Shown in pieces: positions 27,715 to 47,951 of a DNA stretch of 47,951 nucleotides. Positions within the stretch are counted from its first letter, which is position 1. Each line of letters begins with the position of its first letter. The position numbers and the translations under genes were made by a program. The stretch comes from an uncultured Alphaproteobacteria bacterium (GTDB taxonomy: Bacteria > Pseudomonadota > Alphaproteobacteria > HIMB59 > GCA-002718135): contig CACPNW010000008.1 of NCBI GenBank assembly GCA_902635455.1, forward strand, positions 1 to 47,951. The letters are read 5' to 3'. The notes beneath the pieces were generated by a model. It ran no database searches, had not been told where the DNA came from, and saw only the letters and a program-made list of their open reading frames with translations.

Positions 27715-27730
27715 TTTTTATATTATAAAT

Positions 27731-27761
27731 AAATACAAGCGAAATTAATTCGCTTGTATTT
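27731..27761 (-). terminator. 13-bp perfect stem-loop after the RbsB-like gene
   Basis: Arms of 13 bases (AAATACAAGCGAA and its exact complement) with a 5-base loop, 25 bases past the binding-protein stop. On the reverse strand no clean T run follows, so RNA processing or stabilisation of the upstream message is as likely as termination. It is placed like the stem-loops behind the other two binding-protein genes. Confidence 0.7.
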
Positions 27762-27786
27762 TTGGTTTTTAAATTTTGTAATTTAA

Positions 27787-28710
<924 letters not shown>

Positions 28711-28714
28711 TTAA

Positions 28715-28720
28715 CCTCCT
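28715..28720 (-). promoter_or_regulatory. Strong Shine-Dalgarno site of the RbsB-like gene
   Basis: AGGAGG on the reverse strand, four bases before the ATG at 28710. It matches the site in front of the other complete binding-protein gene and confirms the start. Confidence 0.8.
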
Positions 28721-28726
28721 AATTTT

Positions 28727-28763
28727 AGTTTAAAATTTAAACTGATATTAAGTTAACTGATAA
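28727..28763. promoter_or_regulatory. Palindrome and direct repeats before the RbsB-like gene
   Basis: A perfect palindrome AGTTTAAA-A-TTTAAACT (28727-28743) lies just upstream of the Shine-Dalgarno site. Next to it AACTGATA occurs twice (28740-28747 and 28756-28763), 16 bases apart. The gap between permease and binding-protein genes (96 bases) is long for this operon, so an internal promoter or operator is plausible. The AT-rich base makes chance repeats common. Confidence 0.3.
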
Positions 28764-28806
28764 GAGAAAAAAAATCGAGAAGAAAGTATTAAAAAATACT
28801 CAGTTT

Positions 28807-29814: not shown

Positions 29815-29819
29815 AAAAA

Positions 29820-31319: not shown

Positions 31320-31323
31320 GATG

Positions 31324-31977: not shown

Positions 31978-32021
31978 ACTTACTCATTTTAAACATATTT
32001 ATACTAATCACCTTTTGTTTA

Positions 32022-33866: not shown

Positions 33867-33870
33867 AATT

Positions 33871-33875
33871 CTCCT
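33871..33875 (-). promoter_or_regulatory. Shine-Dalgarno site of the IolD-like gene
   Basis: AGGAG on the reverse strand, four bases before the ATG at 33866, in the 133-base divergent gap to the 2-hydroxyacid dehydrogenase gene. It supports this start. The same gap holds an inverted repeat AGATTT-AAG-AAATCT at 33942-33956 that could be an operator. Confidence 0.65.
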
Positions 33876-33999
33876 AAATACTTAAAATACTATTATAACA
33901 ATAAACTTATTTCTAGAATAAAATTAATATAAAGTATTATAAGATTTAAGAAATCTAAACATTTAATTATGAAATTTATTAGAGTATGAGCAAAATATT

Positions 34000-34971
34000 A
34001 TGAAAATAGCAATCATTGGCTCTATTCACCAATCTGGGCTTAATATACTTAAAGAAAACAATTTTGATATTTTAGAAATTGTAAATTTAGAAATTAATTC
34101 TTTAAAAAAAGAATTACAAGAAGTTGATGGTATTGTTTTACGTACTGCAGAACTAAAAGAAAATGTTTTATCAAAATGTAAAAATTTAAAAATTATTGCA
34201 AGACATGGAGTTGGTTATGACAATGTAGATATAAAATTCCTTAATAAGAACAATATAGCTCTTGGTATTACCGGGACTTCAAATGCAGTCAGTGTAGCTG
34301 AACACGTTATGACAATGTTTTTATATTTAGCAAAAAAAATTAATATTTCTGACTCATTAGTTAAAAAAGGTGATTTTATTAAAAAAAATACACTTCCTTC
34401 TTTTTTTGAACTTTATAATAAAAATATTCTTATTTTAGGCTTTGGAAGAATTGGAAGAGAGCTAGCAAAAAGATGTTTGAGTTTTGATACAAAGGTTTAT
34501 GTTTTTGATCCGTTTATCGATAATGAAATAATTAAACAACATAATTGTATTCCTATAGAAAGTAAGGAAGAAGGTATAAGAGTTGCAGACTATATAAGTA
34601 TTCATATGCCTTTAAATGAGAAAACTAAAAATTTTATTTCTTATGATGAGTTTAAAATTTCAAAAAATAATTTAATTTTAGTTAATACAGCTCGAGGAGG
34701 CATAATAAATGAAGAGGCTTTGTTTCAAGCTTTAAAAAGTAAAAGTATTCTTGGTGCTGGTTTAGATGTTTTTGAAAATGAGCCACCAATTAAAAACCAT
34801 CCTCTTTTATCCTTAAATAATATTCTTTTAACGCCTCACAATGCAGCTCTTACACTTGAGTGCAGAACACGAATGTCAATTGAAGCTTGCGAGAATATTA
34901 TATATTTTTTAAATAAAAATAGAAAATTAAATGATAAAAATATAGTTAACAGTAATTTAATAAAATCATAA
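34000..34971 (+). CDS. D-isomer-specific 2-hydroxyacid dehydrogenase
   Basis: A 323-residue NAD(P)-dependent dehydrogenase of the 3-phosphoglycerate/glyoxylate/hydroxypyruvate reductase family. ARHGVGYDNVDIKFL and the nucleotide-binding ILGFGRIGRELAKR (Rossmann Gly at 147, 149, 152) are clear. Catalytic Arg232 (VNTARGGIIN), Glu261 (ENEPP) and His280 (TPHNA) are all present. It has no ACT or other regulatory domain, so it is a simple 2-ketoacid reductase rather than full-length SerA. It is divergent from the IolD-like gene and ends directly against the Rieske-like gene on the other strand. Substrate is not evident; hydroxypyruvate or glyoxylate are usual. Confidence 0.88.
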   Translation: MKIAIIGSIHQSGLNILKENNFDILEIVNLEINSLKKELQEVDGIVLRTAELKENVLSKCKNLKIIARHGVGYDNVDIKFLNKNNIALGITGTSNAVSVAEHVMTMFLYLAKKINISDSLVKKGDFIKKNTLPSFFELYNKNILILGFGRIGRELAKRCLSFDTKVYVFDPFIDNEIIKQHNCIPIESKEEGIRVADYISIHMPLNEKTKNFISYDEFKISKNNLILVNTARGGIINEEALFQALKSKSILGAGLDVFENEPPIKNHPLLSLNNILLTPHNAALTLECRTRMSIEACENIIYFLNKNRKLNDKNIVNSNLIKS

Positions 34972-35292
34972 TTAAAGGTTTAAAAAAATATCATCTTCTT
35001 CTTCAGTAACATCATATATTTTTAGAGGAGGTAAATCTAGATCACTTATTGGATCTCCAGAGACAATACTAAAAGTATTACCACAACTAGCACATTCAAG
35101 CTCTTCACCTTCAATATTGGCCTCACTTAAAAAAGCTTGCTCTTCGCAATAACAATGTCCCTGAGTTGCAAAGAAGCCACTTTCAAGATGAAAAATAGCA
35201 TAATCTATTTCTTCATGTTCAAAATTTTCAACACTTCCTACTTCTATATCATCAACTTCTCCAATGTGAATATTTTCTATTTCTTCATTCAT
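34972..35292 (-). CDS. Rieske-fold ferredoxin-like protein with four Cys in place of Cys2His2
   Basis: A 106-residue acidic protein whose layout matches small Rieske ferredoxins of the MocE/NirD type. After an acidic N-terminus (about 35 residues) comes FATQGHCYCEEQAFLSEA, then ELECASCGNTFSIVSGDP, then LPPLKIYDVTEEEDDIFLNL. In a Rieske protein the ligands are C-x-H and C-x2-H; here the same positions read Cys47-x-Cys49 and Cys67-x2-Cys70. All four ligands would be Cys, predicting a plant-type [2Fe-2S] centre, or zinc. It follows the FMN oxidase gene by 59 bases on the same strand and may serve as electron carrier for an enzyme nearby. Confidence 0.7.
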   Translation of the reverse strand: MNEEIENIHIGEVDDIEVGSVENFEHEEIDYAIFHLESGFFATQGHCYCEEQAFLSEANIEGEELECASCGNTFSIVSGDPISDLDLPPLKIYDVTEEEDDIFLNL

Positions 35293-35351: not shown

Positions 35352-36506
35352 TTATCTAAATCTTATATTTTTTCTAGAAAGCTGATCTAGACTGCTAATA
35401 CCCATTAGTTTCATATCTCTCTCAATTTCATCACGTAAATTAGTCATTGCTTTTTCTACCCCTTTTTGGCCACCGGCAGCAAGTGCATATAAATACATTC
35501 TACCTCCAGAACATGCTTTGGCACCAAGAGAAAGTGCTTTTAGTACATGAGTGCCTCTTCTGATACCGCCTTCACAAATAACATCAACTTTATCTCCTAC
35601 CGCATCAACAATTTCAGATAATTGGTCAAATGGAGATCTAGATCCATCAAGTTGACGTCCACCATGATTTGATAACATAATTGCTGTGGCACCGACATCA
35701 ACAGCTTTTTTTGCATCATCCACAGACATAATGCCTTTAATAGCAAATTGTTTGCCCCAATTTTTATTTATTTCTTCAACGCCTTTCCAGTCCAATGAAT
35801 TATCAAGCATTTTTGTAAAATAATCTCCAATGCTTGTCATAACACTAGTACCTGCATCAATATGATTTTTTAAATTACTAAGTTCCCATTTTGGTTTTGT
35901 ATAATAATCAAAAACCCATTTAGGATGAATAGCAAAACTCATAAAACTTGAAAAACTTAACTTCATAGGTATTGTAAAGCCTGTATATAAATCTCTTTCT
36001 CTATTTCCTCCAACTGCAGTATCTACCGTTACACACATAGCTTCAAAATTAGAATTTTTACACCTTTCTATCAAATCTTTATTTAAACCTTTATCTTTGT
36101 GCACATATAGTTGAAATAATTTTGGAGTTGTTACTAGTTCAGAAATTTCTTCAATACTTGCTGTGCCAAGAGACGAAACGCCAAACATGGTTCCTAGTTT
36201 TTCAGCAGCTTTAGCAACAGCAATTTCTCCTTCATAATGAAATAATCTTTGTAAAGCTGTTGGAGCACAATAAAGAGGCATTTTTAGCTTTTGACCCATT
36301 ACAGTAGTTGTCATGTCTACATTATCAATTCCGGCTAATACATTTGGAACAAGATCACAGGTATTATAAGCTTCAGTATTACGTTTATAAGTAATTTCAT
36401 CATCGGCAGCTCCATCAATATAATGAAATATTGGACCTGGTAGCCTTTGTTTAGCTAATTTTCTAAAATCTTTTGTATTATGACAGTTCTTAATGCTTCC
36501 AAACAT
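35352..36506 (-). CDS. FMN-dependent alpha-hydroxyacid oxidase/dehydrogenase (L-lactate dehydrogenase-like)
   Basis: A 384-residue FMN enzyme of the LldD/glycolate oxidase/mandelate dehydrogenase family. FMN- and substrate-binding marks are FHYIDGAADDE near the start, MPLYCAPTALQRLFHYEGE and FGVSSLGTASIEE. FQLYVHKDKG, VTVDTAVGGNRERD and the catalytic His281 in SNHGGRQLDGSR (with Arg284) follow. The family oxidises L-2-hydroxyacids to 2-ketoacids. It overlaps the FAH hydrolase gene by one base (TAATG). Since such hydrolases can yield pyruvate plus L-lactate, L-lactate to pyruvate is the likely reaction. Glycolate or mandelate remain possible. Confidence 0.88.
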   Translation of the reverse strand: MFGSIKNCHNTKDFRKLAKQRLPGPIFHYIDGAADDEITYKRNTEAYNTCDLVPNVLAGIDNVDMTTTVMGQKLKMPLYCAPTALQRLFHYEGEIAVAKAAEKLGTMFGVSSLGTASIEEISELVTTPKLFQLYVHKDKGLNKDLIERCKNSNFEAMCVTVDTAVGGNRERDLYTGFTIPMKLSFSSFMSFAIHPKWVFDYYTKPKWELSNLKNHIDAGTSVMTSIGDYFTKMLDNSLDWKGVEEINKNWGKQFAIKGIMSVDDAKKAVDVGATAIMLSNHGGRQLDGSRSPFDQLSEIVDAVGDKVDVICEGGIRRGTHVLKALSLGAKACSGGRMYLYALAAGGQKGVEKAMTNLRDEIERDMKLMGISSLDQLSRKNIRFR

Positions 36507-37354
36507 TAAGCGGATACAGTTTTTTGCTTTTGTTCTCCTAAACCCTCAATACCAAGACGCATTTCATCGCCTGGCTTTAACCATACTTGCGGATTTAGGC
36601 CCATTCCAACTCCTGGCGGCGTTCCGGTTGAAATTATATCTCCTGGTTGTAGTGACATAAACTTACTTAGGTAACTTACAAGAAAGTTTACTCCATATAC
36701 CATTGTATTTGTTGAACCATCTTGCATTCTTTTTCCATTTAAATCTAGCCATAATTTTAAATTTTGTGGATCTTCTATTTCATCTTTTGTTACAATGTAT
36801 GGTCCAATAGGACCAAAAGTATCACAAGACTTGCCTTTGACCCATTGCCCAGAATGTTCAATTTGAAATTTTCTTTCACTTAAATCATTTACAACACAAT
36901 AACCTGCAATATGAGACTGAGATTCATTTTCATTTATATATTTTGTTTCCTTCCCAATAATAACCCCTAGCTCGACTTCCCAATCTGATTTTGTAGAATT
37001 TTTTGGTATTTCAATATCATCGTTTGGGCCGACTACAGCACTAGTTGCTTTAAAAAAAATAATTGGCTCAGGTGGAACCTGCTGTCCAGTTTCTTCAGCG
37101 TGATCAGCGTAATTTAATCCAATACATATAAATTTTCCAATAGATTCTTTACTTAAGCATGGCGCAATACTATCTATTTTTTCAACAATAGGTAAAGAGT
37201 TTAAATCTGATGAATTCAACGAATTTAATTTCTCAATATTAATTGTTTTATTATTCCAATCATCAACTAAAGTAGAGGCGTTTCGAATTTTATTTTCTAA
37301 ATCCAAAATCCCAGGCTTAACTTCATTGTTTAATCTATATCTTAAAAGTTTCAT
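36506..37354 (-). CDS. FAH-family hydrolase, probably 2,4-diketo-3-deoxy-sugar-acid hydrolase
   Basis: About 282 residues of the fumarylacetoacetate hydrolase fold. I start it at the ATG whose A is shared with the SDR stop (TAATG). This gives MKLLRYRLNNEVKPGILD, the usual family start; an ATG 12 bases upstream also exists. Key segments are FICIGLNYADHAEETG, SDWEVELGVIIGKE (metal ligands), YCVVNDLSER, GKSCDTFGPIGPY and DIISTGTPPGVGMGL. The same subtype includes ureidoglycolate-lyase-like proteins and the hydrolase that cuts 2,4-diketo-3-deoxy-L-fuconate or -rhamnonate to pyruvate and L-lactate. Neighbouring SDR, dehydratase and lactate-type oxidase favour the latter. Confidence 0.85.
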   Translation of the reverse strand: MKLLRYRLNNEVKPGILDLENKIRNASTLVDDWNNKTINIEKLNSLNSSDLNSLPIVEKIDSIAPCLSKESIGKFICIGLNYADHAEETGQQVPPEPIIFFKATSAVVGPNDDIEIPKNSTKSDWEVELGVIIGKETKYINENESQSHIAGYCVVNDLSERKFQIEHSGQWVKGKSCDTFGPIGPYIVTKDEIEDPQNLKLWLDLNGKRMQDGSTNTMVYGVNFLVSYLSKFMSLQPGDIISTGTPPGVGMGLNPQVWLKPGDEMRLGIEGLGEQKQKTVSA

Positions 37355-38091
37355 TATAAAGTCCATCCTCCATCTATCAAGTTTAAAGTACCAGTGACAA
37401 AATCTGATTCATCACTAGCTAAATAAACTGCTAAAGACGCTATCTCTTCAGGTTGAGCTAACCTTCCCATAGCCTGTCTATTTATAAAATCTTTCCTAGC
37501 CTGAATAGGATCATCAGCCATTGCAACTCTACCTTCCCATGACGGTGTTTCTACAGTTCCAGGAAGTATCGCGTTACATCTTATACCTTGTTTTACATAA
37601 TCAGCTGCCATAGCTTTAACAAAACCATTCAATGCAGCTTTAGTTGTACCATAAATAAATCTATTAGGAGCTCCTTTAACATTAGAAGCTGCTGAAGATA
37701 CAATTATAATATTACCTTTATTTTTCTTAAGCATTTTAGGTAAAAGATTCTTTGACATTAAGTATGCAGAATAAATATTAATATTAATTGAATTATAAAA
37801 TTCTTCAGAATCACATTCTAAAATTGTTCCATGATGCACAAATCCAACTGCATGAAATAATATATCGACTTCATTTATAGTTTCGCAAAATTTTTCAACA
37901 CTTTCCTTATTTGTTGCATCTAAAACGCTTGTACTCAAATTTTGATTAATATTATCTAAATCTTGAATTTTTTCTGAATTCACATCAGTAGCCAACACTT
38001 CAGCTCCTTCTCTTGCAAAAGCAAGTGCTACAGCTTTTCCGATTCCTTGAGCAGCAGCCGTTACAATAATTTTTCTATTTTTTAATCTCAT
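37354..38091 (-). CDS. Short-chain dehydrogenase, 2-keto-3-deoxy-L-fuconate dehydrogenase-like
   Basis: A 245-residue SDR. The cofactor motif is TAAAQGIGKA (residues 11-20). ATDVNSE after strand 2 suggests NAD preference. The catalytic set is Ser132/133, Tyr147 and Lys151 (YGTTK). Distinctive stretches are VGFVHHGTILECD, SSAASNVKGAPNRFIYGTTK, GIRCNAILPGTVETPS and MGRLAQPEEIASLAVYLASDES. These recall 2-keto-3-deoxy-L-fuconate dehydrogenase and the related short 3-hydroxybutyrate dehydrogenase (DHRS6-type). It would oxidise C4 of a 2-keto-3-deoxy acid to the diketo acid used by the next enzyme. Its stop overlaps the FAH start. Confidence 0.85.
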   Translation of the reverse strand: MRLKNRKIIVTAAAQGIGKAVALAFAREGAEVLATDVNSEKIQDLDNINQNLSTSVLDATNKESVEKFCETINEVDILFHAVGFVHHGTILECDSEEFYNSININIYSAYLMSKNLLPKMLKKNKGNIIIVSSAASNVKGAPNRFIYGTTKAALNGFVKAMAADYVKQGIRCNAILPGTVETPSWEGRVAMADDPIQARKDFINRQAMGRLAQPEEIASLAVYLASDESDFVTGTLNLIDGGWTL

Positions 38092-38197
38092 TTTTTAAAG
38101 AAGTCATGTTTTGGTATATGAAGTTTTAGCAGATTGTCGAGTCATTTCAATTAAATATACATCGTTATTTTGATTAATTTTTTTTAACATTTGTAAA

Positions 38198-39304
38198 TTA
38201 TATTTTTTCAAAAGTGCAATTATCAATAAAATCCCAATCAAGATCTATTCCCAAACCAGGTGAATTAGGTAAATAAGCATACCCTTCTTTAACCTGAATA
38301 GATTCTTTTAAACCAAAATTAAAATAATCATAAGGAACCAAAACTTCAAAAAATTCTGAATTTTTAATTGCAGCACAACAATGCAAATTAACTAATTCAA
38401 GCGGATGATAAATTGCTGTATGTATTTCACAATGTACTCCAAAACTTTCAGCAAGATGGGCTGTTTTAAGAGTAGCTGTAATACCACCACTCCAAGAAAC
38501 ATCAGCCCTTACCATATCTACAACTCTTGAAGATATGCATTCAGCAACACTATATGGATGTTTTGATATTACTTCAGTTCCAATAATTGGAATATCAAGT
38601 ATTCGAGTTAATTCACGAAGATTATGAAAGTTTTCATCAAACAAAGGCTCTTCATACCAATAATAGTTTAATTTTTCTAACTCCCTGCCAAACCTTAAAG
38701 CTTCTTCAAATGTATATGGTGCAACTGGATCACTCATCAATTTAAAACCCTTGCCAACAGCTTCTCTTACCTTTTTATGCGCGTCTAAATCAAATTCATA
38801 ATTTCCAGGAGGGTGTAATTTATATGCTTGGAAGCCTTTTTCTTTATATTCACATGCCTCTTTTGCATAAGCCTCTGGAGATTCTAGTACAAGAGAGCTT
38901 CCATATATTGGAACTTTATCTCTATAAGCACCTATATATTTATATAATGGTTGGTTGGCCTGTAGCGATGAAAGAAGCCAACAATTAATATCAAATGGTC
39001 CATAGCTATAAATTGGTGCATGATTCCACCATCTATCTGCCATCCTATATTCATGCCAATGTTTCTCTCTGTATAGTGGGTCACGACCTATAAAAAATGG
39101 CTTAAAAATACTATTGGCAATCTCTCCAGCCATTTTGGCTCCTCTTCCTGCAAATCCAAAAGTTGAACTGGTTAACCCTTCATCAGTATGAAAGGTTATA
39201 ACAAGAAACTCTAAATCAGATTTTTTTCCATCACGCATTTCTGAGTCCTTCATAACTTGATTTGCATGACGGCACATTCTAATTTCAATGTTGGTGATTT
39301 TCAT
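38198..39304 (-). CDS. Enolase-superfamily (mandelate racemase subgroup) sugar-acid dehydratase
   Basis: A 368-residue enolase-superfamily protein with N-terminal capping domain and (beta/alpha)8 barrel. Metal ligands are Asp192 (MSDPVAPY), Glu218/219 (WYEEPL) and Glu244 (IGTEV). The His295-Asp268 catalytic pair (EIHTAIYH, VRADVSW) places it in the mandelate racemase subgroup. At the end of the second strand it has Lys162-x-His164 (YKLHPPG) instead of the common Lys-x-Lys, so its stereospecificity may differ. Typical members dehydrate aldonates to 2-keto-3-deoxy acids. It is shorter than L-fuconate dehydratase (~440). A 106-base gap precedes the SDR gene; the CoA-transferase gene ends 6 bases upstream. 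Confidence 0.86.
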   Translation of the reverse strand: MKITNIEIRMCRHANQVMKDSEMRDGKKSDLEFLVITFHTDEGLTSSTFGFAGRGAKMAGEIANSIFKPFFIGRDPLYREKHWHEYRMADRWWNHAPIYSYGPFDINCWLLSSLQANQPLYKYIGAYRDKVPIYGSSLVLESPEAYAKEACEYKEKGFQAYKLHPPGNYEFDLDAHKKVREAVGKGFKLMSDPVAPYTFEEALRFGRELEKLNYYWYEEPLFDENFHNLRELTRILDIPIIGTEVISKHPYSVAECISSRVVDMVRADVSWSGGITATLKTAHLAESFGVHCEIHTAIYHPLELVNLHCCAAIKNSEFFEVLVPYDYFNFGLKESIQVKEGYAYLPNSPGLGIDLDWDFIDNCTFEKI

Positions 39305-39310
39305 AATAAT

Positions 39311-40465
39311 TTAAAGAGAAAACTCTTCTGAAATTTGTTTAGTATGTTGACCAATAACTGGAGCTGCTCTTTCTGATTTGTATATTTCATTATTAAATCT
39401 AATTGGACATCTAAGAGTTTCAATATCCAAACCATCAAATCTTTTTATCCTTTGAATCATGTCTAAAACTTTAAATCCATCATTTTTCATCATCTTGTCC
39501 CATTCTAAAACTTCTGCACACCATATGTCTGCAGGTTGTAGTATGTCAAGCCAGTGTTGAGTTTTATTTTTAATTATCCAATTTCCGATAAGTTTTTTAA
39601 TCTCATCTCGTTTTGTGAACCATTCTTTCTGATCAGTAAAACCTTTGATACTTTCCAATTGTATTAACTCACCTAATTTAGGAACAGGAGTCATGGCAAT
39701 AGCTATATATCCATCTTCAGTTTTATAAATACCATAAGGTGCTGATAAATAAGCATGGGCATTATTATATGAGCTCCTAACAGGTTTTCTATTTCCATCG
39801 TTTAGATAAGTTGTGAGAACTTCAAATTGAAAGTCAAGCAAGGCTTCCATAAGACTTGTTTCTACATAAGAACCTTTTTGGGTTTTTATTGACTTTATCA
39901 ATGCTGATAGAATGCCTTCGACTAAGTAGTGACCAGCAAGCATATCTGCAGCAGCAAGTCCCATTGGTGTTGGCGCTTCACCACCATTGCCATTTAGCCA
40001 CACTAGTCCTGATCTTGATTGAGCTAATAAATCCTGTCCAGGCAAATCTTTCCAAGGTCCCTCAGTACCATAACCACTTATAGTACCATAAACTATTCTT
40101 GGGTTGATTTTATTAACTGTTTCGTAATCAAGTCCAATACGCTCAATAACTCCTGGTCTAAAATTTTGAGTAATGACATCAGCCTTTGAAATTAGTTTTT
40201 TTATTTTATTTATATCTTCGGTGCTCTTAAGATTTGCTGCAAAACTTTCTTTATTTCTATTTATTGCATGAAATAAAGTGCTATCGCCTTCAAGATCTGT
40301 GTCACTTATATATAAATTTCTGCATAAATCTCCCACCTCAGGCCTTTCTATCTTTATTACTCTTGCCCCAAGATCGGATAGCCTTAAACCAGCTACTGGT
40401 CCTGATAAAAATTGACTGAACTCCAAAACAATTAATCCATCTAATGGTCTGCTATTTGTTGACAT
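39311..40465 (-). CDS. Class III CoA-transferase (CaiB/BaiF family)
   Basis: About 384 residues of a family III CoA-transferase, which moves CoA between organic acids through an aspartyl-CoA intermediate. The start PLDGLIVLEFSQFLSGPVAG and DLGARVIKIERPEVGD form the usual N-terminal CoA site. QNFRPGVIERIGLDYETV and ISGYGTEGPWKDLPGQDLLAQSRSG follow, the last with the catalytic Asp in GQDLLAQ. ATPMGLAAADMLAGHYLVEG completes it. A TTG five codons upstream is in frame; I choose the ATG at 40465. The gene overlaps the upstream binding-protein-like gene by 14 bases, so coupling is tight. The acid partner is unknown. Confidence 0.88.
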   Translation of the reverse strand: MSTNSRPLDGLIVLEFSQFLSGPVAGLRLSDLGARVIKIERPEVGDLCRNLYISDTDLEGDSTLFHAINRNKESFAANLKSTEDINKIKKLISKADVITQNFRPGVIERIGLDYETVNKINPRIVYGTISGYGTEGPWKDLPGQDLLAQSRSGLVWLNGNGGEAPTPMGLAAADMLAGHYLVEGILSALIKSIKTQKGSYVETSLMEALLDFQFEVLTTYLNDGNRKPVRSSYNNAHAYLSAPYGIYKTEDGYIAIAMTPVPKLGELIQLESIKGFTDQKEWFTKRDEIKKLIGNWIIKNKTQHWLDILQPADIWCAEVLEWDKMMKNDGFKVLDMIQRIKRFDGLDIETLRCPIRFNNEIYKSERAAPVIGQHTKQISEEFSL

Positions 40466-41597
40466 ACATACTCTTTTCAAATTCTTTAATTAATTTATCA
40501 ATTACTATGTCGCTTCCTTGGTCATGTTTTAAATAATCATTTATTATAGTACCAGCAATGTCTTGAAAATACATATATCCGTCAAATCTTGGTCTTAACC
40601 ATGATTTTTCTAGCGTTTCAAGTGTATCTATAAAAAAATTATTACAATCTTCATTTAAATTTTTATCTTTCCAGGCCTTAATATTTCCAGGCTGACCTCC
40701 AGAATAATAAAATAAATTTTTTTGACAATTCTCAGATGCTATCCAAAATGTATATTCAATTGCTAAATCAATATGTTTTGAATTTTTAGAAATAGCAAGA
40801 CCAGTTCCTCCAAGTTGAGAGCCTTTGCAATTATATAAATTTTCATCAAAAGAAGGTATATTCGAGAAATGTATCAAATGGTTCTTAAAATTATTTCTAG
40901 AATAATTTGAATAACCATATAGCAATGGACAATAAATTTTATCATCTTGTGTTGATAAATAATCAAGAACATTAATTGGATTCATTTCCAAACATTTAGT
41001 TGGAACCAAATTTGCAAGTCTTTTCATCATTTTTAAAATAGTAATTCCTATTGATCTATCTATTAGTTTTTCATTATCATTATAAATAGCAGAGCCAATA
41101 TTTGCTGCTATAGTATTAAAGCTTGAAATTGCATCAATTGGTTTAATTGGCCACAACACAAGTGATTTTTCAGCAAGCTTAATAACTTCCTCAAAAGTAA
41201 GAGGTAATTCATTTATAAATTTTTTATTATATGCAGCTACAGGTGCAGCAGCATCTATAGCTAGAGCATACTGATGGTTGTTAAAATTATAACTTTCATG
41301 TGACTTGCCAACAGAATTTTTAAATAATTCAGATAATTGATTTTTATATTCTTCATAATCGTCAAGTTCTAACAGCAAGTTTTTTCTTGAAGCTTCACCT
41401 ACATGCGGATGATCAATTACCATTAAATCATATTCAAAAGCCATGTTTTCTATAGGTCGATCAGCAAATGCTTGTAATGGTCTTTTATCCCATTCAATTT
41501 TTATTTCAGGATATTTTTGATTAAACTTCTTTGCAGTAGCTACCATCGGATCAAAACCCCTTGGATGATCCCAGCTAATTCCTTTTAATTGGATCAT
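40452..41597 (-). CDS. Extracellular solute-binding protein homologue without signal peptide
   Basis: A 381-residue protein with the look of a family 1 (MalE-like) solute-binding protein: ISWDHPRGFDPMVATAKKFNQ, DLMVIDHPHVGEASRKN, YALAIDAAAPVAAYNKKF and LGGTGLAISKNSKHIDLAIEY. Yet it begins MIQLKGISWDHP with no hydrophobic signal. An in-frame stop (the TAA of the MaoC gene) lies directly before the ATG, so no longer start is possible. The product should stay in the cytoplasm. It sits between a MaoC gene and a CoA-transferase gene it overlaps. A carrier, sensor or enzyme built on the binding-protein fold is possible; no function is known to me. Confidence 0.75.
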   Translation of the reverse strand: MIQLKGISWDHPRGFDPMVATAKKFNQKYPEIKIEWDKRPLQAFADRPIENMAFEYDLMVIDHPHVGEASRKNLLLELDDYEEYKNQLSELFKNSVGKSHESYNFNNHQYALAIDAAAPVAAYNKKFINELPLTFEEVIKLAEKSLVLWPIKPIDAISSFNTIAANIGSAIYNDNEKLIDRSIGITILKMMKRLANLVPTKCLEMNPINVLDYLSTQDDKIYCPLLYGYSNYSRNNFKNHLIHFSNIPSFDENLYNCKGSQLGGTGLAISKNSKHIDLAIEYTFWIASENCQKNLFYYSGGQPGNIKAWKDKNLNEDCNNFFIDTLETLEKSWLRPRFDGYMYFQDIAGTIINDYLKHDQGSDIVIDKLIKEFEKSMYVNK

Positions 41598-42155
41598 TTA
41601 TTTTTTTTTAATTTTATCTTTAAATTTTGCAGGTTGTTTATAGAGAACCGAATGTAAATGTTCACAATAAAGTACTATTTCTCCTTTTCCTTTAAAAACT
41701 TCATAGCTAGTTCTTACTAAACCCATTTTTTTATATTTAGGTTTTTTTTCTATATTGGTGCGAATTGTATAAATCGTATCACCTATAAATACTGGTTTAA
41801 TAAATCTTAATTTATCATATCCATAACTAAAAGAATTCACACAGTTAGTAGCTACTAAACCTAAACCATAAGAAAATACCATAGCACCAGCAATTAATCT
41901 TTTATTGAACATTCCTTCTTTTTTAGCAAATATTTCATCACCAACATATGGATGCATATCTAAAACCATGCAATTAAACTGCATGGCTTCACCTTCTGAT
42001 ATAGTTCTTCTTATTGATCTAATTTTATGTCCAATAATCACATCTTCATAAAACCAGTTTTCTGAATTCCATACAGGTATTTCACCATGATCTTTAGGCA
42101 TGTCTTTTGGGTTAGTGGTTTCTATTCCAACAGTTGGTTTATGTTTGCTATTCAT
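41598..42155 (-). CDS. MaoC-family dehydratase/hydratase, long form
   Basis: A 185-residue hot-dog-fold protein of the MaoC family. The hydratase motif appears as [19 protein letters not shown] near residue 65, with an Asp and His at catalytic-like positions. [15 protein letters not shown] and the hot-dog strand [14 protein letters not shown] follow. About 40 residues precede the fold. MaoC enzymes hydrate enoyl-CoA or dehydrate hydroxyacyl-CoA, so a link with the CoA-transferase two genes downstream is natural. A second MaoC gene lies divergent 53 bases away; both share the VFIGDTI stretch, so they may act as a pair or heterodimer. Confidence 0.82.
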
Positions 42156-42208
42156 TATAAAATGATATTAAATGATAATTATAATAATTAAAATTAGAAT
42201 TTATCAAT

Positions 42209-42655
42209 ATGGCAGAAATAGAACTGTATTTTGAAGATTATAACATTGGTGATGAAAGAACTACTTTAGGTAGAACCATTACTGAAACAGATATTGTTAT
42301 GCATGCAATGCATTCGGGTGATTTTTATCCTCACCATGTTGATGCTGAATTTGCAAAAAAAGGCCCTTTTGGTCAAAGAATTGCTCAATTTAGTTGTACG
42401 TTTTCTATAGGAATAGCCTTAACTGCTGAAATAGTAAATAAAAGAGCTTTTACATATGGTTTTGAAAGACTTCGTTTTCCTAATCCAGTTTTTATAGGAG
42501 ATACAATTCATACTAAAGTCACTATAAAAGAAAAAAAAGATGATCCAAAAAGACCTCAGTATGGACAAGTTGTGGAGGCTTGTGAAATTATTAATCAAAA
42601 AGATAAGGTAGTTTGTTATTCAGAACATATTTTATTAGTAGAAAGAAAAAAATAA
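42209..42655 (+). CDS. MaoC-family dehydratase/hydratase, short form
   Basis: A 148-residue single hot-dog MaoC protein. Visible are LYFEDYNIGDERTTLGRTITETDIVMHAMHSGDF, shown here as the N-terminal strand region. Then come FYPHHVDAEFAKKGPFGQRI with the hydratase-type His and Asp, and [17 protein letters not shown]. It is the only forward-strand gene in the 35-48 kb stretch. It faces away from the longer MaoC gene and converges on the RraA-like gene (3-base gap). It probably draws on a promoter in the 53-base divergent gap, where AATGATA is repeated 10 bases apart. Substrate unknown, presumably an acyl-CoA. Confidence 0.84.
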   Translation: MAEIELYFEDYNIGDERTTLGRTITETDIVMHAMHSGDFYPHHVDAEFAKKGPFGQRIAQFSCTFSIGIALTAEIVNKRAFTYGFERLRFPNPVFIGDTIHTKVTIKEKKDDPKRPQYGQVVEACEIINQKDKVVCYSEHILLVERKK

Positions 42656-42658
42656 AAC

Positions 42659-43312
42659 TTAAAACACACTATACTTAAGATAAGCTTTTTGAGGATCCAT
42701 CCCCTCCCTAATAGCTTTTCTAATTTCACTTTCAGTTGATATTAATTTTTCAGATTTAATGAGAATTTCTTCAGCTTTATCTTTAGGAATAATTACCACT
42801 CCATCAATATCTGCCATTACATAATCATCATTATGTATTTTTGTGTTTCCAATTGTAACAGTTTGCTCTAATTTAGTTGGTGACCAATATGATACAACAT
42901 CTCTTGGAGTATAAAAATTACACCAAACAGGAAAATCAATATTTAAAATAAATTCTAAATCTCTGCAACCACCATCAATTATACAGCCTCTTACTCCTTT
43001 ATTTTGAAGAGTTTCAGCAGATAACTCTCCCATTAGAGCAATCTCTTGATTATTTGGCTGGCAAACTATTATTTTATCTCTAGGGGCTTTAGATAAAAAT
43101 CCAGTCCAAGCCAATAAACTTTCATGGTGAGTGAGTTTTGTATTAATTTCTCCTTCTATTGTAAATATTTGCCCGCTAATTTTATAGTTTTTTTTAGTTG
43201 GATTAATTGAAGATGGCAGAGTAAAATCTTTTATTTCCATATCTCTCATTACATCATGAATCACACTACTAAAACATTGCTGAAAACGATCTGATATTTC
43301 TACTGAATTCAT
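42659..43312 (-). CDS. RraA-fold class II aldolase/decarboxylase (HMG aldolase-like)
   Basis: A 217-residue protein of the RraA/4-hydroxy-4-methyl-2-oxoglutarate aldolase fold. The metal and pyruvate site of true aldolases is kept: GELSAE (Gly95) and, about 20 residues on, GGCRDLEFI with Arg117-Asp118 and Glu120. This matches the G-x20-R-D-x2-E/D pattern, so it is more likely an aldolase or oxaloacetate decarboxylase than the RNase E inhibitor RraA. Old databases call such proteins menaquinone methyltransferases, which is wrong. Its start overlaps the importer ATPase stop by 4 bases, so it belongs to the CUT1 operon. Confidence 0.82.
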   Translation of the reverse strand: MNSVEISDRFQQCFSSVIHDVMRDMEIKDFTLPSSINPTKKNYKISGQIFTIEGEINTKLTHHESLLAWTGFLSKAPRDKIIVCQPNNQEIALMGELSAETLQNKGVRGCIIDGGCRDLEFILNIDFPVWCNFYTPRDVVSYWSPTKLEQTVTIGNTKIHNDDYVMADIDGVVIIPKDKAEEILIKSEKLISTESEIRKAIREGMDPQKAYLKYSVF

Positions 43313-44406
43313 TTAATAACTTTTTCTGTATCTTTATCAAATATATGAATTTTATTTAAGTTAATTGAAAATTCAATTTTTTGTCCAATTTTAATTTCTC
43401 TTTGATTATACATTCTACTAATAATTTCTTTGTTATTTAATTTTATAAATATCTGGGTTTCAGTGCCTAAGGGCTCAACAAGATCTATGTTTTTTTCAAA
43501 ATTCCAAATATTTTCAGATGAGTTAGATGATATTGTAGGAGTAATATCTTCGGGTCTAATACCTATTATTACATTTTCTTTCTTAGACAAATAATCAAAT
43601 TTAGATTCTGGACAAGGCATTAAAATATTTTCATCTAGTTCAAAAAATAATTTTGCATCTTTTTTGATAATATTTGCAGTTAAAATATTCATAGGTGGAC
43701 TTCCAATAAAAGTTGCAACAAAAACATTAACCGGATTATTAAAAACATCAATTGGGCTGCCTATCTGTTCAATATAGCCATCTTTCATAATAATAATTCT
43801 ATCTGCTAACGTCATTGCCTCAACTTGATCATGTGTTACGTAAACTATCGTTGTTTGTAATTTTTGATGAAGTTTTTTAATTTCAGTTCTCATTTGTGTT
43901 CTCAACTTTGCATCTAAATTAGATAAAGGCTCATCAAAAAGAAAGGCATCTGGGCGCCTTACTATTGCTCTGCCCATAGCTACTCTTTGTCTTTGGCCGC
44001 CTGAAAGTTGAGAAGGTTTACGTTTTTGTAATTCTTGCAAACCAAGTATTTGAACGGCTTCTTTAACCCTTTCTTCAATTTCCTTTTTATCAACTTTTGC
44101 TATTTTTAGACTAAAGCCTAAATTTTCTTCAACAGTCATATGCGGGTATAAAGCATAATTCTGAAAAACCATTGATACATTTCTATCTTTAGGATCTTTT
44201 TCATTTACCAATTGATCATCAATAAATATTTCACCTCCAGTTATTTCTTCTAAACCAGCAATCATCCTTAAAGTAGTTGATTTTCCACAACCTGATGGGC
44301 CAACTAAAACTAAAAATTCATTATGTGGAATAAATAAATCCATATTTTGTACAGCAATTACGTCACCATATTTTTTTGTAAGATTTTTTAATTCAACATT
44401 TGCCAT
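43309..44406 (-). CDS. CUT1 sugar ABC transporter ATPase (MalK/UgpC type)
   Basis: A 365-residue ATPase. Walker A is GPSGCGKST (residues 36-44), Q-loop VFQNYALYPHMTV, signature LSGGQRQRVAMGRAI and Walker B AFLFDEPLSNLDAKLR; the H-loop His is in VYVTHDQVEAM. A C-terminal OB-type (TOBE) regulatory domain of about 120 residues, with IGIRPEDI, is typical of MalK/UgpC proteins. It is one base from the permease gene upstream and overlaps the aldolase gene downstream. In some bacteria one such ATPase serves several importers; this one is in a full operon. Confidence 0.94.
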   Translation of the reverse strand: MANVELKNLTKKYGDVIAVQNMDLFIPHNEFLVLVGPSGCGKSTTLRMIAGLEEITGGEIFIDDQLVNEKDPKDRNVSMVFQNYALYPHMTVEENLGFSLKIAKVDKKEIEERVKEAVQILGLQELQKRKPSQLSGGQRQRVAMGRAIVRRPDAFLFDEPLSNLDAKLRTQMRTEIKKLHQKLQTTIVYVTHDQVEAMTLADRIIIMKDGYIEQIGSPIDVFNNPVNVFVATFIGSPPMNILTANIIKKDAKLFFELDENILMPCPESKFDYLSKKENVIIGIRPEDITPTISSNSSENIWNFEKNIDLVEPLGTETQIFIKLNNKEIISRMYNQREIKIGQKIEFSINLNKIHIFDKDTEKVIK

Positions 44407-44407
44407 A

Positions 44408-45247
44408 CTATCCTTTCACACCTCCAAATGTCAGTCCAGAAACTAAATGTTTTTGAACTATAAAGGTTAATATTACTGCAGGTACTATCATTACAACTGC
44501 TATAGCACACATACCTGCCCAATTTATTGTAAATTCATCCAAATAGTCCATCATTCCTATAGGCAAAGTTTTAGAATGAACAGTTCTAGTTATAATAGAC
44601 GCTAAAGCATATTCATTCCATGAAAGTAAAAAAGCAAATATTGCTGCTGCTCCGATCCCTGGGCCTGCAAGAGGTAGTTCTACATTCCAAAAAGCTTGTA
44701 ATCTTGTGCAACCATCAGTTCTGGCTACTTCAGACATTTCTTTAGGAATTTGTCTGAAAAATCCATCAGTTAACCATATTGTAAACGGAACATTCATCGC
44801 AACATAAACTAAAATAACGCCAAAAGATGTATTTATAATTCCTATTTTGGCAAATAAAATAAAAAGGGGTAAGCTTAATGAAATACCTGGTACAGCTCTT
44901 GCAAGCATTAATCCCAGAAAAATTTTGTTTTTACCTTTAAAATTAAATCTTGCAAAAGCATATCCTCCCATCATACCAATTGTAATAGCTATAACAGTGC
45001 TTACTGAAGAAATTATTACTGAATTCATTAAATATTTAAATGCAGGTACCGATACGTAACCATTAATACTGAACATTTGTGTAAACTGATGAATTGTCCA
45101 TCTATCTGGTATCCAATTAGCAGGCTTTGCTAATATTTCTGGATTAGGCCGAAAAGCACTAACAAAAATCCAAATTCCCGGCATACAAATTAATATTAGT
45201 AGAAACATTACTAAGAACCAAAAAGATATTTTTTTTATTTGTTTCAT
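44408..45247 (-). CDS. CUT1 sugar ABC transporter permease (MalG type)
   Basis: A 279-residue inner-membrane permease with six membrane segments. The EAA loop that contacts the ATPase reads EVARTDGCTRLQAFWNVELPLAGPG near residue 177, beginning after FFRQIPKEMS. FVSAFRPNPEIL after the first segment is typical of MalG-like subunits. It overlaps the MalF-type gene by one base and precedes the ATPase gene by one, so the importer subunits are translated in series. Confidence 0.93.
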   Translation of the reverse strand: MKQIKKISFWFLVMFLLILICMPGIWIFVSAFRPNPEILAKPANWIPDRWTIHQFTQMFSINGYVSVPAFKYLMNSVIISSVSTVIAITIGMMGGYAFARFNFKGKNKIFLGLMLARAVPGISLSLPLFILFAKIGIINTSFGVILVYVAMNVPFTIWLTDGFFRQIPKEMSEVARTDGCTRLQAFWNVELPLAGPGIGAAAIFAFLLSWNEYALASIITRTVHSKTLPIGMMDYLDEFTINWAGMCAIAVVMIVPAVILTFIVQKHLVSGLTFGGVKG

Positions 45248-46137
45248 TATTGTTGTCCTAATTCTCGTCTTGCTGCTACAAGTTTAGTAAAGAAATAATA
45301 AGTAAAGGCTATTGATAATATTATTGAAACGTAAGACATAGCATTTGCAAAACCCATATTTGCATCTTTATAGCCTATCCTTGCTATCATTGTCCAAAGT
45401 AGCTCTGTTCTCATTGCCGGTCCTCCACCTGTCATAATATGAACGATATCATAAGCTCTTCCAACATCCAGTGATCTGATTGTTAAAGCAATAAATATAA
45501 ATGGCATTAAAAATGGAAGGGTAATATTCTTAAATACTTGCCAGCTATTGCAACCATCCACACGCGCAGCTTCAATAGGATCTCTTGGAATTCCCAAAAG
45601 ACCAGCTAATAACAAAATAGCAAAAATAGATGTGTTTGCCCAAATTTCTGCAATCATAATTGACCCCATTGCAAGGTATTTATCAATTAACCATGGTATT
45701 GCTGACTCATAACCAAATAAATACAAAAAATTGTTAAGCAAACCAATATTATCATTAAAAATATATTTCCATTGGAAACCAACTAAAATCGGTGAAAACA
45801 TCATTGGAAACATCATGATAGTTCTTAAAGTTCTTTGGCCCCATGTAATTTTATTTATTAAAAGGGCTATACCGAGACCAAATAATAACTCAAGATTTAG
45901 TACGACTGCTAAAAATAATATTGTTCTTCCAAAAGCAGCCCAAAATTTTACATTATCAATTAATCGTTCATAATTTCTAAGACCAACAAAATTATAAAGA
46001 CTATCAGGACGTGTTAATTTGTAAGAAGTAAAGCTAGTATAAAAAGAAAATAATAGGGGTATTATTATTACAAAGCCAATTGCTAATATTGAAGGTAGTA
46101 ATAATAAAGCAGGACTGCTAAAAAATTTTCTATTCAT
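45247..46137 (-). CDS. CUT1 sugar ABC transporter permease (MalF type)
   Basis: A 296-residue inner-membrane permease with six membrane segments. It has FYTSFTSYKLTRPDSL after the first segment, GLRNYERLIDN, then the EAA loop EAARVDGCNSWQVFKNITLP near residue 190, and MTGGGPAMRTELL, typical of MalF/UgpA-type subunits. It lacks the large periplasmic loop of E. coli MalF, as is normal outside enterobacteria. It starts directly after the Gfo/Idh gene. Confidence 0.93.
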   Translation of the reverse strand: MNRKFFSSPALLLLPSILAIGFVIIIPLLFSFYTSFTSYKLTRPDSLYNFVGLRNYERLIDNVKFWAAFGRTILFLAVVLNLELLFGLGIALLINKITWGQRTLRTIMMFPMMFSPILVGFQWKYIFNDNIGLLNNFLYLFGYESAIPWLIDKYLAMGSIMIAEIWANTSIFAILLLAGLLGIPRDPIEAARVDGCNSWQVFKNITLPFLMPFIFIALTIRSLDVGRAYDIVHIMTGGGPAMRTELLWTMIARIGYKDANMGFANAMSYVSIILSIAFTYYFFTKLVAARRELGQQ

Positions 46138-47217
46138 TTAATCTGCGTAAGTTATTTTTAATCCTCCTGATTGACTTGATATGCCACAAGAATCAACAAT
46201 AGCCATTGTATCAATAGAGTCATCTATTGATGTAATTAATTTATCGTCTTCACCATTTTTAAATCTTTGCATATTAGCCATTACTCCAATAAAAGCATCA
46301 GGAAACCATTTACCTTTAATATCAAATTTAACCCAATCCGTATTTTCAGTAATGATTTCTAATTCTTCAGGTTCCCCGTTCGGGTAATCCAACAAAAGAC
46401 CTAAAGTCATTTTTGCAGCACCTTTAGTACCTTCCAATCTAATATATGCATCTTGATTTTTTCTTCCAAAAGAGTGACAGTGATTTATTGTCATACAACA
46501 TCTGATTTGATCTCCATAATTAAAAATAGCACTTGTTCTGCAGTCTGCTAATTCATTTACTTTAGGATGTTTTACAGATTGACAATATAAACTTTTAGGA
46601 TTGCCTAAAACTGATCGTATCCAATCAATATAGTGAATTGAGTGCAATGGCACTTCTACGCGATCTAGTGTTTTTAAAAAAGGCCACAATTCCCAAGGGG
46701 TGTGAACATTTACATGAACTTCAAGTTCTACCAATTCTCCCAAAAGATTGTTTTTAATTGCTTCATATACAGGAAGCATAATTGGGCTAAATCTTAATTG
46801 AAAATTCATACTTGCTTTAATGTTTTTTTGATGACAAATTTTTCTAATTTGATTTCCCTCTTCCAAAGACCTACCAAGTGGTTTTTGAAAAATTGCGTAA
46901 ATATTTTCAGGGAGTTTTTCTACAGTTTCTAATAAATTTGCAGGTGGTAGCGCTAAATCGAAAACACAATCTTTGTTTTCAAATGACTCTTCAAGAGAAC
47001 TATAAACTTTATTAATTTCATATTCTTTAGCCAAAGAATTAGCTTTTTCTGTATCTATGTCATATAAACCAGATACACTAAAACCTGCTTTTTTATATGC
47101 TGGAAGATGTGCATCTTTAACTATTCCACCAGTACCTATAATTGTAATTGGGTTTTTTTTACTTGGCATTGGCCAAGTTTGACTCAAATTTTTTATATCT
47201 TCTTCTTGGTTACTCAT
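46138..47217 (-). CDS. Gfo/Idh/MocA-family oxidoreductase
   Basis: A 359-residue NAD(P)-dependent oxidoreductase. The Rossmann motif IIGTGGIVKDAHLPAY begins near residue 26. The family EKP motif reads FQKPLG with Lys112. PLHSIHYIDWIRSVLG holds the His-x3-Asp-like catalytic region. It is distinct from the Gfo/Idh gene at 17887-19035. It stands between the binding-protein and permease genes of the CUT1 importer, so it probably oxidises the imported sugar or sugar acid as the first catabolic step. Substrate unknown. Confidence 0.86.
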   Translation of the reverse strand: MSNQEEDIKNLSQTWPMPSKKNPITIIGTGGIVKDAHLPAYKKAGFSVSGLYDIDTEKANSLAKEYEINKVYSSLEESFENKDCVFDLALPPANLLETVEKLPENIYAIFQKPLGRSLEEGNQIRKICHQKNIKASMNFQLRFSPIMLPVYEAIKNNLLGELVELEVHVNVHTPWELWPFLKTLDRVEVPLHSIHYIDWIRSVLGNPKSLYCQSVKHPKVNELADCRTSAIFNYGDQIRCCMTINHCHSFGRKNQDAYIRLEGTKGAAKMTLGLLLDYPNGEPEELEIITENTDWVKFDIKGKWFPDAFIGVMANMQRFKNGEDDKLITSIDDSIDTMAIVDSCGISSQSGGLKITYAD

Positions 47218-47236
47218 AAAAAAAATAGATTAAATT

Positions 47237-47268
47237 TTAGCTACCCCTTCATTACTAGGGGTAGCTAA
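47237..47268 (-). terminator. Stem-loop after the CUT1 binding-protein gene
   Basis: A perfect 12-bp stem (core AGCTACCCCT / AGGGGTAGCT) with an 8-base loop, 11 bases past the binding-protein stop. On the reverse strand a T-rich stretch follows only after about 12 bases. As with the other two importers it divides the binding-protein gene from the rest of its operon, and probably acts as attenuator or mRNA stabiliser. Confidence 0.72.
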
Positions 47269-47279
47269 TTTAAAGAGGC

Positions 47280-47951
47280 TTAGTAATAACCAGCGTCTTG
47301 CATTAAATAGTCTGTTTCTTTAGCTGCAGCATCTAGTGCTTCCTTAACTGTCTTATCACCCACTATTGCAGCTTGCAATTCAGGGAAAATAATATTTGAA
47401 AAAGGAATCCACTCAGGAATTAGTGGAGGTGTAAATGCGTCTTCTGCCATTGAAGCTTTGAATGTTGAGAAAAGATCACTCATGAACGCATTTCCTTCAG
47501 CATTCATTTCACTTGCAATATCATCCCAAACTCTACTCATAGTTGGAAGTTTTCCTCCTCTAGCTTCATGCATTTGAGCTTCATGGTTAGTTAGTATCCA
47601 AATCAACGAAGCTGCTGCTTCTAGATTTTCATCAGGACAACCATTAAGAATTGAATAAGTATGAGAACCTGACCAGCCCCCTCTTTTTCCTCCTGATCCC
47701 ATTGGAAATCTAACTAGCCCTACATCACCGCCGATTTTTGAGTCAGCGCTATTGAAGTATGCACCCCAACCTCCCCAATCAAGGTTAAGAGCAACTGTTC
47801 CACTAGCAAATCCAAGACCAGTTTCATCCCAAAGATAATTTAAAACACCAGCAGGTACTGCTTGAGCATTGTATAAATCAACAAACCATTGAAGTGCTCT
47901 TTGACCAGCTTCATTGTTAAAAGTTGGTCGCCATTGATCATCAAACAATGC
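47280..47951 (-). CDS. CUT1 sugar ABC transporter binding protein, 3' part
   Basis: The last 223 residues or so of a family 1 solute-binding protein; the 5' part lies beyond the right edge. The frame is open through the last base. The TTG at 47948 that could be read as a start is an internal Leu codon. Visible are RPTFNNEAGQRALQWFVDLY, ALNLDWGGWGAYF, GGKRGGWSGSHTYSILNGCP and ETDYLMQDAGYY at the end. These fit binding proteins for oligosaccharides or polyols in CUT1 systems. Base composition is richer in G+C than its neighbours, like the other binding-protein genes. It is the upstream gene of the operon running left. Confidence 0.9.
   Translation of the reverse strand, partial: ALFDDQWRPTFNNEAGQRALQWFVDLYNAQAVPAGVLNYLWDETGLGFASGTVALNLDWGGWGAYFNSADSKIGGDVGLVRFPMGSGGKRGGWSGSHTYSILNGCPDENLEAAASLIWILTNHEAQMHEARGGKLPTMSRVWDDIASEMNAEGNAFMSDLFSTFKASMAEDAFTPPLIPEWIPFSNIIFPELQAAIVGDKTVKEALDAAAKETDYLMQDAGYY

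Follow-up and report, generated by a model that had tools for sequence, protein, structure and literature searches.

Genes of the block and the nature of its back end

The stretch of DNA analysed here (the window) is an entire contig of 47,951 bases, CACPNW010000008.1, from an uncultured alphaproteobacterium whose assembly of 1.14 Mb is 68% complete. Positions 35352-47951 hold a block of catabolic genes in which a class III CoA-transferase (CaiB), a binding-protein fold without a signal peptide (SBPcyt) and two MaoC-type hot-dog proteins (MaoC148 and MaoC185) lie among genes for sugar-acid breakdown and a CUT1 importer. An earlier note on this DNA had listed these genes as one mostly reverse-strand block with overlapping joints and had taken them for a candidate undescribed catabolic pathway. 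The inventory proved correct: every gene named is present, all on the minus strand apart from MaoC148, which lies on the plus strand inside the block and is the divergent second MaoC gene of that note, and five gene joints overlap by 1 to 14 bases each. The Cys4 Rieske-like protein that had been counted into the block exists as well, at 34972-35292, outside 35352-47951.

The back end of the locus resembles known sugar-acid catabolism closely. In a sequence comparison with the PDB, the SDR (37354-38091, minus strand; FucF-like) is nearest to solved BDH2 (2ag5), and structures of L-2-keto-3-deoxyfuconate 4-dehydrogenase (8y4j, 8xwk and 8y11) come second. Its residues R144, T179, R188 and R210 equal Arg148, Thr183, Arg192 and Arg214 of the studied dehydrogenase minus a constant 4, and all four are kept in 59/59 alignment rows, rows below 45% identity having been left out. 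In the studied enzyme, the three arginines bind the carboxyl group of the substrate (PMC11199699). For the FAH-type hydrolase (36506-37354, minus strand; FAA_hydrolase), the top PDB match was the L-2,4-diketo-3-deoxyrhamnonate hydrolase 8gsr at 276 bits, with the runner-up at 199, and the NCBIfam equivalog NF053535 scored 370.6 bits, below its cut-off of 500; we regard the protein as an L-2,4-diketo-3-deoxy-fuconate/rhamnonate hydrolase resembling FucG/LRA6. The FMN-dependent enzyme (35352-36506, minus strand) belongs to the L-lactate dehydrogenase (LldD) family by Pfam (FMN_dh, PF01070, 428.7 bits) and by NCBIfam, the latter at 295 bits and under the cut-off of 376. The Cys4 ferredoxin (106 residues, minus strand), whose NCBIfam matches of the HcaC/MocE type fell below cut-off, has four cysteines (CxC...CxxC) in place of the two cysteines and two histidines of the Rieske type. 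Its gene adjoins that of LldD in relatives' loci both with and without the cassette defined below.

Judged by sequence, the SDR, the FAH hydrolase and lactate oxidation are the already known end of the non-phosphorylating L-fucose/L-rhamnose route, and the claim of an undescribed pathway is not supported for the locus as a whole. The trio would convert the 2-keto-3-deoxy acid of fucose or rhamnose to pyruvate and, via L-lactate, to a second pyruvate. We consider it highly probable that the back end is of the fucose/rhamnose type. From the back end the two sugars are indistinguishable, because both routes yield one and the same diketo acid (PMC11199699).

Next to the SDR lies a 106-base gap (38092-38197, minus strand), which in relatives is the site of an L-fuconate dehydratase gene (FucD) missing from the window. 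It is followed by a 368-residue enolase-superfamily protein resembling acid-sugar dehydratases (38198-39304, minus strand; PF13378, MR_MLE_C), whose best PDB match is 1rvk, an 'isomerase/lactonizing enzyme', at 171 bits. Beyond the CoA genes, which are treated in the next section, the minus strand encodes an RraA-like aldolase/decarboxylase (42659-43312; PF03737), the ATPase (43309-44406; PF00005 and PF17912) and two permeases (44408-45247 and 45247-46137; both PF00528) of the CUT1 importer, a Gfo/Idh-type sugar dehydrogenase candidate (46138-47217; PF01408) and the CUT1 periplasmic binding protein (47280-47951; PF01547). The second permease is 62-66% identical to proteins of loci L021, L023, L025 and L026, and a PDB sequence search with the Gfo/Idh protein at 1e-10 gave zero matches. 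The gene for this binding protein is truncated, since the window is the whole contig and ends there; no mutarotase or lactonase gene lies within the block. In the searches, the FAH and CaiB query sequences started at 37351 and 40462 and so lacked the ATG codon.

The CoA-transferase, its binding-protein-fold neighbour and the hydratases

CaiB (39311-40465, minus strand) matched PF02515 (CoA_transf_3) at 318 bits and could be aligned with PDB entries. An aspartate at residue 173 of the query used is present in 142/142 rows; from the PDB alignments we take it to be the catalytic one. Among the relatives of CaiB are transferases linked to succinate, oxalate and mesaconate. MaoC148 (42209-42655, plus strand, 148 residues; PF01575; closest PDB entry 4ffu, 197 bits), a hot-dog hydratase/dehydratase, keeps D38 and H43 intact in 78/78 rows, the Asp/His pair of the MaoC (R)-hydratase motif. 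MaoC185 (41598-42155, minus strand, 185 residues) reads D-x-H-P-Y-V, with valine at the position of the catalytic histidine in 84/84 rows and another histidine two residues past the aspartate, and it is possibly a regulatory or a different hot-dog protein. These counts leave out rows below 45% identity (MaoC148 and CaiB) or 55% (MaoC185) and rows below 85% coverage.

In homologous loci CaiB is encoded with MaoC148 or with a crotonase-fold enoyl-CoA hydratase, which at several loci takes MaoC's place (Pfam check). MaoC and crotonase have unrelated folds, and the reaction that they usually share is the hydration or dehydration of a CoA thioester. In a tree of 33 SBPcyt rows, 8 of which carry the crotonase label, we counted at least 4 changes between MaoC and crotonase, four of them forced by well-supported branches; the deep forks of this tree are weak, L178 and L151 form long branches, and the label is a reading of the neighbourhood (L028 also has a MaoC148-like gene).

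SBPcyt itself (40452-41597, minus strand; PF01547, SBP_bac_1) has the fold of an importer's binding protein. The structure model of the window protein (pLDDT 90.4) superposes on the trehalose/maltose binding protein 1eu8 with a Z of 37.8 and an rmsd (root-mean-square deviation) of 2.6 over 368 residues. Its first strand, residues 2-9, begins at residue 2 and leaves no space for a signal peptide, and the earlier note was right to call the protein signal-less. In our alignment, a script set the homologues' starts so that they fitted the query. Many of the conserved residues are arginine, histidine, tryptophan and tyrosine, which would suit a predicted acidic, sugar-like ligand. Annotated plasmid records that we opened label SBPcyt as part of an importer.

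Homologues of SBPcyt occur in 145 plasmid records, at 40% identity at best. At the 14 plasmid loci opened, CaiB was next to SBPcyt in 12, one gene off in one and two genes off in one. A scan of named-genome contigs with the single SBPcyt sequence gave zero relatives; with alignment A2 it gave at least 566 confirmed loci, of which the closest 80 were kept. In all 80, CaiB lies within 300 bp of SBPcyt. The same stretch holds MaoC185 at 61 of these loci, a lactonase at 59, MaoC148 at 43, Gfo at 42, a mutarotase at 40, the SDR at 25, FAH at 3 and FucD at 1, many stretches being cut by contig ends. Since the 80 loci are mostly from Rhizobiales, they are not independent; a sample of 398 genomes of the phylum is the even one. 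There, SBPcyt was found at 1e-40 in 18 genomes and 22 places, with CaiB adjacent at 18 places, a crotonase gene in between at one, and no CaiB in the fetched stretch at three. The CoA module (CaiB, SBPcyt and a hydratase) thus recurs broadly but thinly.

The company of the module varies. In L139 and L147, from two other families, a regulator, an amidohydrolase, a mutarotase, Gfo/Idh, CaiB, SBPcyt and MaoC148 stand in a row, with an adjoining CUT1 importer in L139. Two Bacteroidota plasmids carry the module together with a RhaT-type symporter; CaiB is present twice there, and a second binding protein is encoded. A Methylobacterium plasmid and a Streptomyces plasmid carry the module with MFS carriers. 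These plasmid contexts were judged from 12-15 kb on each side of SBPcyt. At one plasmid locus an AMP-binding CoA ligase gene follows the trio. The second binding protein of the Bacteroidota plasmids (L022, 18670-19794; L024, 18445-19674) is 14-15% identical to the first, apparently signal-less, and encoded beside the second CaiB. Where relatives of SBPcyt have no CaiB nearby, at L183 (5926-8402), L184 and L185, the adjoining gene encodes a UxuA-type mannonate dehydratase, and an RraA-like gene is close by.

Core, cassette and front ends among related genomes

We surveyed 101 genomes, 100 of them relatives and one the window's own. Of these, 51 have the FAH gene and 31, including the window's, a CaiB orthologue. 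Both are present in 28 genomes, and in the remaining three CaiB genomes the contig stops before the FAH position, so that the CoA-transferase and MaoC genes do belong with the sugar-acid genes, as the earlier note had supposed; a separation of the two sets in all relatives was not found among the 101 genomes. SBPcyt was present at high score in 30 genomes (29 intact and one, G021, broken), every one a CaiB holder; at the default limit the scan returned 78/101, of which 48 were discounted as 24-28% matches over short stretches. The sole CaiB genome without it, G054, has a contig that ends at that point. MaoC148 occurs in 29 genomes, all of them CaiB holders. In the broken case (L048), SBPcyt is interrupted by stop codons, which may be an assembly error; CaiB and the two MaoC genes seem intact.

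We opened loci from 22 of the 30 CaiB relatives, from 15 of the 23 FAH genomes without CaiB (one, L063, being too short to judge), and five loci of the 19 genomes with a GH29 fucosidase. In the relatives opened, the genes of the block are together and their general order is the same, with some insertions and moves: in G035 and G055 the MaoC pair is separated by additional genes, and in several relatives Gfo/Idh sits beyond the binding protein on its far side. The picture of one block therefore stands insofar as the genes cluster in relatives. It fails for the 23/51 FAH genomes without CaiB: in 14/14 judgeable loci of this kind, three divergent genes (c19, c20 and c21), which by eye resemble an epimerase, GalT and SufE, stand beyond the SDR, with one more gene in between at one locus. 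From this distribution and the cassette-free loci, the locus consists of two units, a core (SDR, FAH hydrolase, FMN enzyme and ferredoxin) and a variable cassette (enolase, CaiB, SBPcyt, the two MaoC proteins, RraA, the CUT1 importer and Gfo/Idh). Chance adjacency of the CoA and sugar genes is rejected, the same genes clustering in relatives, in the wider loci and in the phylum sample.

Next to the core, positions 25955-34971 hold a neighbouring sugar locus with CUT2 importer genes, the N-terminal half of a transketolase and a thiamine pyrophosphate enzyme that by eye resembles IolD. A D-2-hydroxyacid dehydrogenase is also encoded there; both it and the thiamine pyrophosphate enzyme remain beside the core in relatives.

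In all 20 opened relatives' loci that span the gap of the window, a 433-residue FucD is encoded between the 368-residue enolase and the SDR. Compared with the PDB, the relatives' FucD scored highest against 4ip4 (493 bits), then against human enolase superfamily member 1 (488 bits) and, at 466 bits, against structures of L-fuconate dehydratase. No FucD orthologue was found in the window or in its 68% complete assembly, where the best hit was a 24% identical fragment match. We also examined 19 whole genomes with the module. FAH and MaoC148 are present in 19/19, a second enolase in 14/19, and neither FucD nor a second enolase, at the limits used, in four (G101, G103, G107 and G108), where other dehydratases may serve.

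An L-rhamnose-mutarotase-like gene (score below cut-off) lies beyond the importer in 12 relatives' loci, and a fuconolactonase-like amidohydrolase (also below cut-off) and fucosidases are found near the module in loci elsewhere. The neighbourhood of the relatives' importer also includes a MetE-like gene of the methionine synthase type, at 11 loci, and, at 12 loci, a gene resembling epimerases; examples are L046 101-1126 and L040 18070-19029.

GH29 scored above cut-off in 19/101 genomes, 15 of which are without CaiB. The window's genus has a separate GH29 fucosidase locus, and in the CaiB-free genomes G053, G023 and G028 this locus holds FucD, lactonase-like and mutarotase-like genes and a CUT2 importer; it lies on a different contig, and CaiB, SBPcyt and MaoC are all absent from it. 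In G019 and G021, which hold CaiB, the GH29 stretch fetched is without FucD and lactonase. The GH29 locus and the cassette would be alternative front ends for one core. This suggests that small-genome marine bacteria use interchangeable fucose-type front ends to feed a shared core of SDR, hydrolase and lactate oxidation.

A candidate CoA-cycling dehydration, its rivals and its closest known systems

Literature searches for the combination of sugar-acid genes with CaiB, SBPcyt and MaoC found no description, and one by S. meliloti locus names found no paper. Genes of this kind in S. meliloti are reportedly linked to fucose. Taken as a whole, the locus encodes a variant of an already known pathway; the CoA module inside it is undescribed as far as these searches show. 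From the gene content, the active-site residues, the co-occurrence and the absence of signal-peptide room in SBPcyt, we infer the sugar, the CoA chemistry and the role of SBPcyt as follows. The CUT1 importer would take up a 6-deoxy-L-hexose, either L-fucose or one of its close stereoisomers, for instance L-rhamnose. A dehydrogenase, probably the Gfo/Idh protein, would oxidise the sugar to the lactone, and ring opening would give the aldonate. CaiB would transfer CoA to the aldonate, with SBPcyt as a cytosolic sugar-binding fold that presents the polyhydroxy acid to it; MaoC148, or a crotonase in other bacteria, would dehydrate the aldonyl-CoA thioester; and CaiB would pass the CoA from the product to the next substrate, as CaiB does with CaiD on L-carnitine. 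The net reaction would be a CoA-cycling dehydration of the aldonate to the 2-keto-3-deoxy acid, replacing or paralleling an enolase-type fuconate dehydratase. The SDR would then oxidise C4, the FAH hydrolase would split the diketo acid into pyruvate and L-lactate, and the FMN enzyme would oxidise L-lactate to pyruvate.

We lean towards SBPcyt being a partner of CaiB. That the module performs a CoA-cycling dehydration within a 6-deoxy-L-hexose pathway, by analogy with carnitine, we propose tentatively. With greater reserve, we consider that a new system for the CoA-cycling dehydration of aldonates may exist in three phyla, as an alternative to the enolase-type and IlvD-type dehydratases, which depend on metal. 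It would be formed by CaiB, a sugar-binding protein domesticated for the cytosol, and a hydratase for which the hot-dog and crotonase folds are interchangeable.

Several observations weigh against this reading. FucD accompanies the module in 20/20 spanning loci and in 11/19 whole genomes, so the module is often not the sole dehydratase; the 68% completeness of the assembly means that FucD of the window's own genome could lie in a gap. The 368-residue enolase may itself carry out the dehydration. Of the eight module genomes without FucD, four have another enolase, and in L156 (G103) and L159 (G104), both without FucD, UxaA-like genes (named by eye) stand beside FAH. The proposition that absence of FucD proves the module to be the dehydratase was tested in the 19 genomes and gained weak support: 14 have a second enolase, and UxaA-like genes are present in two. 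MaoC148 is in the same stretch at just 43/80 loci, and the spread over 18/398 genomes is thin. At the three of 22 places where SBPcyt lacks CaiB in the stretch, its neighbour is a UxuA-type dehydratase (one Pfam-checked), so SBPcyt is not tied to CoA; this suggests that a signal-less binding protein can go with several types of sugar-acid dehydration. Finally, identity to relatives is 48-66% for SBPcyt, compared with 78-83% for CaiB and 81-91% for the MaoC proteins, which is odd in a core subunit, although SBPcyt is not the only fast gene, as RraA (64-71%) and Gfo/Idh (53-89%) likewise vary strongly. Because FucD often coexists and other dehydratases may serve, the module may run in parallel to them, act as an epimerase or handle a different stereoisomer.

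One possibility is therefore that the CoA module epimerises, dehydrating and rehydrating the aldonyl-CoA or inverting C2, and so makes L-fuconate from a stereoisomer not accepted by FucD, which would widen the sugar range. The coexistence with FucD just described fits this, aldose-epimerase genes occur in module loci, and CaiD is also described as a carnitine racemase (PMC2131755). It is at odds with the 8/19 module genomes that have no FucD orthologue, and likewise with the incomplete assembly of the window, and we regard it as unlikely. Another possibility is that the module works further downstream, on some short acid product, and lies among sugar genes for co-regulation only, which would suit the succinate-, oxalate- and mesaconate-linked relatives of CaiB. 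The sugar-binding-fold partner beside CaiB in 80/80 loci speaks for a sugar-like substrate instead, and the same short products would be expected in the 23/51 FAH genomes that have no CaiB, which makes this explanation quite unlikely.

The earlier note had favoured a branched, methylated or acylated sugar acid, with the CoA enzymes handling the modified part and the sugar-acid enzymes the rest. An RraA-type aldolase in the block and the MetE-like (11 loci) and epimerase-like (12 loci) genes near relatives' importers could be read this way. Against it, the small operons L139 and L147 have no recognised methyl- or acyl-removal gene, and the company of the module elsewhere is a mutarotase, a fuconolactonase-like amidohydrolase, fuconate dehydratase and sometimes a fucosidase. 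Because the core is a fucose/rhamnose end and relatives carry L-fuconate dehydratase, we favour a 6-deoxy-L-hexose over a new branched sugar acid, and the modified substrate appears decidedly improbable. Least of all do we expect SBPcyt to be a normal binding protein of an importer, exported to the periplasm in some unrecognised way and encoded next to CaiB by accident. Its clear CUT1 binding-protein fold would allow this, but the first strand at residue 2, the separate binding-protein gene already adjoining the importer of the block, its retention in loci with RhaT or MFS carriers, as judged from 12-15 kb on each side, and the 80/80 adjacency to CaiB argue otherwise, and as an importer subunit it is rejected.

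Sugar-acid dehydration is usually assigned to metal enzymes. If the CoA-cycling reading is true, a CoA-dependent version of it exists, and a family of signal-less 'extracellular solute-binding proteins' gains a cytosolic role; the plasmid records that name SBPcyt as an importer part mean that transporter annotations would need correcting.

The closest known pathway is the diketo-hydrolase branch of non-phosphorylating L-fucose/L-rhamnose degradation, with FucM, FucA, FucB, FucC, FucF and FucG and with LRA5/LRA6 (PMC11199699). The window shares with it an SDR bearing the residues of L-2-keto-3-deoxyfuconate 4-dehydrogenase, a hydrolase of the LRA6/FucG type and an FMN enzyme of the lactate dehydrogenase family, and relatives add FucC (our FucD) and a mutarotase-like gene. 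It differs in having CaiB, SBPcyt and MaoC in addition, in having no fuconate dehydratase, and in having Gfo/Idh in place of FucA. A marine alphaproteobacterial group, Candidatus Indicimonas (AEGEAN169), has a fucose utilisation operon with GH29 and non-phosphorylating fucose degradation, as reported in PMC11366302. The GH29 locus of the window's genus, with its FucD, lactonase-like and mutarotase-like genes in the three genomes opened, resembles this operon and would be the same one; compared with the cassette, it has a CUT2 importer, lies on another contig and has no CaiB, SBPcyt or MaoC.

With the CUT1 periplasmic binding proteins (1eu8 and SmoF, 7ofy), SBPcyt shares the fold over its whole length. 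Unlike them, it has no room for a signal peptide, is encoded with CaiB and occurs without a nearby ABC importer, and its identity to them is 13-19% in the rows listed. For the chemistry, the nearest precedent is enterobacterial carnitine metabolism, in which CaiB and CaiD dehydrate on CoA thioesters, the CoA is cycled and the ligase CaiC supplies CoA derivatives (PMC2131755). A class III CoA-transferase and a hydratase are common to both systems, and a ligase gene is present in one homologous locus. Here, however, the CoA chemistry is a prediction, the hydratase is MaoC or a crotonase, the substrate is presumably a polyhydroxy acid, and CaiB has a putative cytosolic partner with a binding-protein fold.

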